From Caldifarciminota bacterium (GTDB lineage: Bacteria; Hydrothermota; Hydrothermia; Hydrothermales; JAJRUZ01): a stretch of 51,675 nt of DNA. The notes under the pieces were generated by a model. The model was given only the letters and a program-made list of their open reading frames with translations. It had not been told where the DNA came from and did no database searches. Shown here in pieces: positions 36,273 to 37,510 of the stretch. Location of the stretch: contig JAJRUZ010000009.1 of the NCBI GenBank assembly GCA_024277525.1, forward strand, positions 1-51,675. The letters run 5' to 3'. Position 1 is the stretch's first letter. Every line of letters starts with the position of its first letter. A program made the position numbers and the translations under genes.

Positions 36273-36749
36273 TTAAAGCAACTCCTTAATTAAATTTTCA
36301 AAAAATTCTTCATTTCTGAATCCTATGATTTTTTTCACAATTTCTCCTTTTTTATTTACCACAAAAGTAGTAGGAATAGCAGGAATACTTCCGAACTTTC
36401 TTATAACTTCGGATGTTGCGATCACAAGAGGATAATTTATATTGTAATCTTTCGCAAATTTCTTGACTTTTTCACCTGCATTTTTTCCACGATCCACCGA
36501 AACCCCCACCACTAAAAGACCTTCTTTTTTATATTTTTTGTAAAGATTTATAAGACCGGGAATTTCAGCCCTGCACCAATGACACCATGTTGCCCAAAAA
36601 TTTATTATTATAACTTTTTTACCTATATGTTTATTAAGGTCAAAAATTTTACCGTTAATTTCGGGAAGTTTGAAAGAGGGAACCCGCTCCTTAAGAGGCT
36701 CCGACCATACGATTAGCGGAATTATAAGAAAAAACAAAATTTTTCTCAT
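36273..36749 (-). CDS. Secreted TlpA-like thioredoxin
   Basis: The 158-residue protein has a signal peptide (about 1-16) and a redoxin domain with INFWATWCHWCRAEIPGL (C56/C59). Its cis-proline lies in IPAIPTTFVV. It probably acts as a periplasmic disulfide reductase. It lies in the speD-prs operon, touching both neighbours, and is shorter than the LolA-fused TlpA protein at 17338. Confidence 0.9.
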   Translation of the reverse strand: MRKILFFLIIPLIVWSEPLKERVPSFKLPEINGKIFDLNKHIGKKVIIINFWATWCHWCRAEIPGLINLYKKYKKEGLLVVGVSVDRGKNAGEKVKKFAKDYNINYPLVIATSEVIRKFGSIPAIPTTFVVNKKGEIVKKIIGFRNEEFFENLIKELL

Positions 36750-37510
36750 TTCTCTTTTCCTTTCACATTTTCCTCAATTATATTTGATACCTTTTTAAGG
36801 AATGACTCATCATCCTTAAATCCGTCTTTATTTTTTGTCCTTATCACGAGCTTGCCCCATTCACTCCCGTTTCTGAAAATGGGAAATTGAATCTCGGAGT
36901 GAACACTCGGACTCCTTTTTTTCTTTCCGCTTTCTTTTTTCTTTATTGAATATAAAAGTTTTTCTCCCTTGTAAATGCCTATGAAAGAATAATCTTCAAA
37001 GGTATCACCTAAAAGATTTAAAATTTTCTCAATTTTATCTTTTTCATTTTCCGATAATATATTTTTTACCATTCTTAAAAAACTTTCCTGTTTTAATTTT
37101 TTCTTATAATGGGTAAGTTCCTCTTCCCATGTAATAATTGAATGATAAAATATTTTATCTCCTTCTTCAATCCCCCTTGTAATTTCACTTATATGGACAT
37201 TTTCTGCTTTAAATTCCTGCAAGGCAAAATTAACTGCTGCTTCGGGATTCGAATATTCTCCGCAAGTGTATATATCAAGAGCAACATAGCCGTATTCGGG
37301 CCATGTGTGGACAGAAATATGGGATTCCGAAATCACAATGACACCCGAAACCCCTTGCGGCGGAAATCTATGAAAGGAAACAGCCCATATTTTCACATTT
37401 GCTTTTTGTGCAGCCTTTACAAGTATTTCCTGCATTTTTTCAACATTTCCGATGATTTCTGGTGCACAACCGGACGCCTCTACAATGTAATGTTCTCCTA
37501 TCGGATTCAT
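36746..37510 (-). CDS. speD: S-adenosylmethionine decarboxylase proenzyme with C-terminal GAF-like extension
   Basis: SpeD makes decarboxylated SAM for spermidine synthesis. Residues 1-130 match the bacterial class: cleavage at E62-S63 would give the pyruvoyl group (VISESHISVHTWPE), and H68 and C83 are the catalytic His and Cys. Usual bacterial SpeD is about 120-130 residues, so half of this 254-residue protein is extra. After a Lys-rich linker, residues about 155-250 have a GAF-like beta-alpha pattern (DYSFIGIYKGEKLLYSI, IQFPIFRNGSEWGKLVIRTK, DDESFLKKVSNII). A regulatory sensor domain is a reasonable guess. It heads the eight-gene minus-strand operon. Confidence 0.85.
   Translation of the reverse strand: MNPIGEHYIVEASGCAPEIIGNVEKMQEILVKAAQKANVKIWAVSFHRFPPQGVSGVIVISESHISVHTWPEYGYVALDIYTCGEYSNPEAAVNFALQEFKAENVHISEITRGIEEGDKIFYHSIITWEEELTHYKKKLKQESFLRMVKNILSENEKDKIEKILNLLGDTFEDYSFIGIYKGEKLLYSIKKKESGKKKRSPSVHSEIQFPIFRNGSEWGKLVIRTKNKDGFKDDESFLKKVSNIIEENVKGKEK

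Follow-up and report, generated by a model that had tools for sequence, protein, structure and literature searches.

Class 1b S-adenosylmethionine decarboxylase (AdoMetDC; SpeD) is the minimal form of AdoMetDC, and to our knowledge no regulatory domain has been described for it. Bacterial SpeDs joined to a second, polyamine-related enzyme are known from the SpeD-SpeDC (Li et al., 2023; PMC10407285) and SpeD-SpeE fusions, and the second half is sometimes defunct, as in V. vadensis (PMC10407285). Two SpeD-SpeE fusion proteins were also seen here, at L094:6001-7284 and L107:5992-7302 (Crocinitomicaceae and Chitinophagales records). In Trypanosoma, AdoMetDC is modulated by prozyme, a dead AdoMetDC paralogue with which it forms a heterodimer (PMC5201418). 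The type II free methionine-R-sulfoxide reductase (fRMsr) of Thermoplasma acidophilum requires Cys60 and Cys84 (PMC6211008), and arguments both for and against a use of the fRMsr GAF domain as a module in larger proteins have been put forward (PMC3206869, on Salmonella MsrC).

The locus described here belongs to a Caldifarciminota bacterium (contig JAJRUZ010000009.1); the window is the whole stretch of DNA analyzed, 51,675 nucleotides long. It encodes a SpeD to which a second domain (residues ~134-254) has been added (Table 1). The window protein resembles T. maritima TM0655, a class 1b AdoMetDC (1tlu/1vr7), in the whole catalytic domain, in S63, H68 and C83 and in the predicted fold, whereas it differs by ~120 extra C-terminal residues, which make up the second domain, and by a subfamily tail at residues 118-133. 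With type II fRMsr it shares the order of the GAF fold, the flanking motifs YxxIGIY and PSxxSEIxxP and the final helix, but it lacks ~40 residues along with both cysteines and the Asp-x-Asp, and its GAF domain is fused to SpeD. Like SpeD-SpeDC and SpeD-SpeE, the fusion pairs a bacterial SpeD with a second enzyme family; its partner, however, comes from methionine-sulfoxide repair and has another fold and pathway. What it would share with the Trypanosoma pair is the principle that a catalytically inactive partner modulates AdoMetDC, although in the window protein a predicted dead domain of a different family lies on the same chain. Both halves belong to known families; their arrangement as SpeD-GAF constitutes a new domain architecture, and the open-access literature searched contained no account of SpeD fused to GAF or fRMsr. 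In the following, G000 is the window genome, G001-G003 belong to the same family and G004 represents a second family of the same order.

Table 1. Features of the fusion gene, and its neighbor, in the window.
Feature	Position	Strand	Basis
speD-GAF fusion gene, 254 aa	36746..37510	-	ORF, from ATG at 37510 to the stop ending at 36746; same fusion in G001-G004
AdoMetDC (class 1b) domain, residues 1-117	37160..37510	-	PF02675, TIGR03330, Foldseek
Ser63 codon, predicted pyruvoyl precursor and self-cleavage site	37322..37324	-	Alignment with T. maritima S63; role from PMC10407285
His68 codon, predicted processing residue	37307..37309	-	T. maritima alignment; role from PMC10407285
Cys83 codon, predicted catalytic residue	37262..37264	-	T. 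maritima alignment; role from PMC10407285
Conserved tail of the SpeD subfamily, residues 118-133 GDKIFYHSIITWEEEL	37112..37159	-	Unfused relatives; low pLDDT
Linker, residues 134-155, largely a single long helix (129-153 in the model)	37046..37111	-	AlphaFold model
Reduced GAF domain of type II fRMsr descent, residues 156-250	36761..37045	-	Alignment, profiles, model, Foldseek
Lysine-rich loop, residues 191-200, replacing ~40 fRMsr GAF residues	36911..36940	-	Alignment A1; pLDDT <50 at 192-202
TlpA/ResA-like thioredoxin with signal peptide (context, outside the fusion)	36273..36749	-	Start overlaps fusion stop (ATGA)

The SpeD half gave matches above cut-off to PF02675 (residues 7-113, E 2.7e-40) and TIGR03330 (residues 4-113, E 6.5e-41), and its S63, H68 and C83 aligned with the T. 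maritima AdoMetDC 1tlu/1vr7 at identical positions. Foldseek superposed the model on 1vr7/1tlu with a TM score (target) of 0.91. The roles of the three residues in processing and catalysis are described in PMC10407285. The preliminary description of a textbook class 1b SpeD with the Thermotoga residues is borne out by both profiles and the alignment; the limit it drew after the first 130 residues holds roughly and was corrected, SpeD-type sequence extending to ~132 with the subfamily tail. Residues 118-132 (GDKIFYHSIITWEEE; pattern GDxIFYHSIITWEEE) were also present in unfused SpeD relatives, and the tail is therefore not part of the fusion; it is absent from T. maritima SpeD. The tail, as GDxIFYHSIITWEE (37112-37159), marks a SpeD subfamily common to the class of the window organism, Armatimonadota and Aminicenantes, which shares ~30-44% identity with canonical SpeDs from the same class and phylum. 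One genome, G059, carried both kinds, a window-like SpeD alone (C28:13885-14292) and a canonical one (C17:31576-31950) just upstream of two speE genes, which makes it a candidate for functional divergence.

The window genome contained a single SpeD. Clear SpeE homologues lie at two loci, C25 and C41, and the speE at C41 adjoins the gene of a pyruvoyl-dependent arginine decarboxylase (PvlArgDC); no match to the PLP-type ornithine/arginine decarboxylase family was found in this genome. This PvlArgDC is of the archaeal type (G000:C41:2803-3982), and its position beside speE suggests an agmatine-based spermidine route. With no second SpeD in the genome, but with both SpeE homologues and the PvlArgDC alongside, the window SpeD is probably the AdoMetDC of the cell. 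The same subfamily was the sole SpeD found in 20 genomes of the class, 19 of which also had SpeE.

The C-terminal part of the window protein showed no GAF or other match in a Pfam search. AlphaFold, run with the five fused sequences, predicted a compact alpha-beta-beta-beta-beta-alpha domain with block pLDDT mostly 80-88, built of helices 159-170 and 235-250 and strands 174-181, 184-190, 205-213 and 216-225, and preceded by a helix at 129-153; the loop at 192-202 was disordered (pLDDT <50), and the pTM of 0.47 means that the relative placement of the SpeD and GAF domains is not reliable. Foldseek with the full model returned SpeD structures and then GAF domains, including the fRMsr entries 3rfb and 4mmn, with probability 1.00. 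When the C-terminus was modelled alone from only the four shortened sequences, pLDDT was 69, and fRMsr and GAF entries were among the top matches, the best fRMsr having a probability of 0.84-0.94 and E of at least 0.04. The suggestion of a GAF-like fold is thus upheld by a compact domain rather than a loose extension.

The origin of this domain is best seen in G004. The C-terminal half of its protein (P0002) matched Pfam GAF (PF01590, 6e-13), and the nearest solved structures were free methionine-R-sulfoxide reductases, with E values of 3e-28 to 5e-28 for 3ksg/3ksf from S. aureus and 2.8e-26 for 4mmn, the type II fRMsr from Thermoplasma acidophilum. It matches type II fRMsr over the full length; the first cysteine found in the S. 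aureus type is missing, and both type II cysteines, the KSEI glutamate and the Asp-x-Asp strand are kept. For the window domain, a PDB search with alignment A1 is biased because A1 includes G004, and the ancestry was examined with three tests independent of that sequence. A profile of the four shortened domains searched against 177,635 PDB sequences gave six matches, five of them fRMsr (best E 0.017); hhalign of the same profile with five standalone fRMsrs of the class gave a probability of 96.7% (E 3.9e-10); and window residues 191-249 matched the standalone fRMsr of G022 (E 2.9e-5). The window C-terminus as a single sequence yielded two PDB matches, both to the T. acidophilum fRMsr, with E ~1. 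Standalone fRMsr proteins of the two-cysteine type occur in the class of the window organism. These sequence comparisons indicate that the window C-terminal domain descends from a type II fRMsr. As the reductase cysteines are still intact in G004, the fusion would have begun as two complete enzymes and not as a ligand sensor. The G004 protein (L161:6219-7076, minus strand), an intact SpeD-type II fRMsr, is a better experimental candidate than the window protein, and as the complete, ancestor-like form it is the more striking object; it probably joins two active enzymes, SAM decarboxylase and methionine sulfoxide repair, on one chain.

In G000-G003, ~40 residues are missing between strand 2 and the PSxxSEI strand. 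This deletion was placed with alignment A1, which was also used for the model; A3 and A4 placed it less plausibly. The absent stretch holds the GxGICG cysteine and the catalytic cysteine, so that both cysteines (Cys60 and Cys84 in T. acidophilum), present in G004, are absent from the window protein and G001-G003. A short lysine-rich loop takes the place of the lost residues in this family, with R199 at the position of the catalytic Cys84 (Thermoplasma numbering) and Lys there in the relatives. The conserved Glu and Asp-x-Asp of fRMsr, seen in alignment A6, line the substrate site; the window protein keeps the Glu (E206 in PSxHSEI), and V222-I-R224 replaces the Asp-x-Asp. The pocket-wall segment is absent by both alignment and model. 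The aligned sequences indicate that catalytic and pocket parts were lost in this family, and the predicted domain retains the GAF core but not the segments by which the pocket is usually closed. A frameshift or assembly error was considered as the cause of the short domain and rejected, the deletion being common to four genomes of two genera.

Among 60 relatives, every one of the five genomes of the order carried the full-length fusion, so the architecture proposed from the window alone does recur in close relatives. The remaining 35 genomes of the class showed no such fusion; their SpeDs, where found, end at ~130-160 residues. The SpeD subfamily recurred in searches of 147 genomes of the same phylum, of 43 from the phylum to which an Armatimonadota locus belongs and of 396 from that of an Aminicenantes locus, but outside the five no match continued into a GAF domain. 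Altogether, no other SpeD-GAF fusion was found in 586 genomes of these three phyla, and no plasmid or phage record covered 80% of the G004 protein. The gene order hppA-pth-rplY-prs-tlpA-speD was identical in the stretches of G000, G001, G002 and G004; this common neighborhood, together with the deletion common to two genera, excludes an assembly error. The product of the neighboring tlpA is a TlpA/ResA-like thioredoxin carrying either a signal peptide or a lipoprotein leader. Across the order this gene remains next to speD, an arrangement absent from those unfused relatives of the class that were checked. The thioredoxin was rejected as a reductant of the fRMsr domain, because such a leader would place it outside the cytoplasm.

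Our preferred reading, to which we give a probability of about 0.7, is that the window protein combines a working class 1b AdoMetDC with a former fRMsr that is kept as a pseudo-enzyme module, serving as a structural, oligomerization or protein-contact element. The SpeD half would cleave itself before Ser63 and supply decarboxylated SAM to the SpeE enzymes of the genome. In the ancestor of the order both halves were probably complete, as they still are in G004; in the family of the window organism the reductase half would then have lost its middle segment, which forms the pocket, together with both cysteines and the Asp-x-Asp, leaving a compact module that would no longer reduce methionine sulfoxide. 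Most likely, its role is neither catalytic nor that of a classic ligand-binding GAF domain, and it was kept for assembly or regulation of SpeD. The more specific scenario, in which an ancestral bifunctional SpeD-fRMsr gave rise in this family to a pseudo-enzyme that regulates or assembles SpeD, is tentative, and we place it somewhat short of even odds.

Selection bears on whether the module has a function at all. For the GAF part, comparisons among family members gave dN/dS values of 0.07-0.09, most dS values being saturated; in the closest pair, G001/G003 (dS 0.28), w was 0.08 for the GAF part vs. 0 for the SpeD part. These values indicate that the C-terminal domain is maintained under purifying selection; the fused sequences available numbered five in all. 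Non-synonymous change in it was, however, 4-11 times faster than in the SpeD part, so slow decay also fits: the functionless reductase half could be a tolerated, slowly eroding tail, as the large deletion and the variable lysine-rich loop might imply. We consider this rather unlikely, since the low dN/dS holds even in the close pair, the frame and secondary structure are kept in four species of two genera, and the predicted fold is compact. The extra domain is more than a chance occurrence: no genome of the order (n = 5) lacks it, it is under purifying selection and it is predicted to fold compactly.

A function of another kind was suggested in the preliminary description, which saw in the last 120 residues a small-molecule sensing fold and hence a possible ligand-controlled SpeD. 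Under this reading, a metabolite such as methionine or its sulfoxide, a polyamine or a nucleotide would bind the domain and thereby switch decarboxylase activity. The GAF fold, the retained pocket glutamate E206 and the purifying selection are compatible with this, but the claim is left unsupported because, by alignment and model, the usual GAF pocket is deleted: the ~40 residues lost include the segment that covers it, both cysteines and the Asp-x-Asp are gone, the replacement is a variable lysine-rich loop of low model confidence, and the full-length relative G004 is by its motifs an enzyme and not a sensor. Ligand control therefore appears doubtful. The full domain of G004, with both required cysteines, the Glu and the Asp-x-Asp, would make a bifunctional SpeD and methionine sulfoxide reductase conceivable for the window organism as well; with neither cysteine present and Arg199 at the position of the nucleophile, this is hardly credible. 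The SpeD half, finally, could be a neofunctionalized arginine or ornithine decarboxylase, given its distinct subfamily, distant from canonical SpeDs, and the co-occurrence of both SpeD kinds in G059. The SpeD-derived arginine and ornithine decarboxylases (SpeDA/SpeDC) are marked by loss of the conserved Pro / diagnostic Gln-Thr-Phe-Tyr of the central region (PMC10407285). In the window SpeD, P51, P71 and a T. maritima-like motif of this region are kept. That the subfamily is the sole SpeD in 20 genomes of the class, 19 of them with SpeE, makes these decarboxylases an unlikely model, and all five genomes of the order have a separate PvlArgDC; we judge this reading quite improbable.

A second domain that occurs throughout the order, as a complete reductase in one family and as a pseudo-enzyme in the other, amounts to a natural experiment on the conversion of an enzyme domain into a non-catalytic module. 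The fusion with SpeD bears on whether the GAF domain of fRMsr can serve as a module in a larger protein, and in the complete G004 form a single polypeptide would both repair methionine and consume SAM. If the regulating or assembling pseudo-enzyme is real, it would represent a lineage-specific coupling of methionine-sulfoxide repair with SAM decarboxylation, and a modular use of the fRMsr GAF domain, whose signaling role has so far been speculation only.
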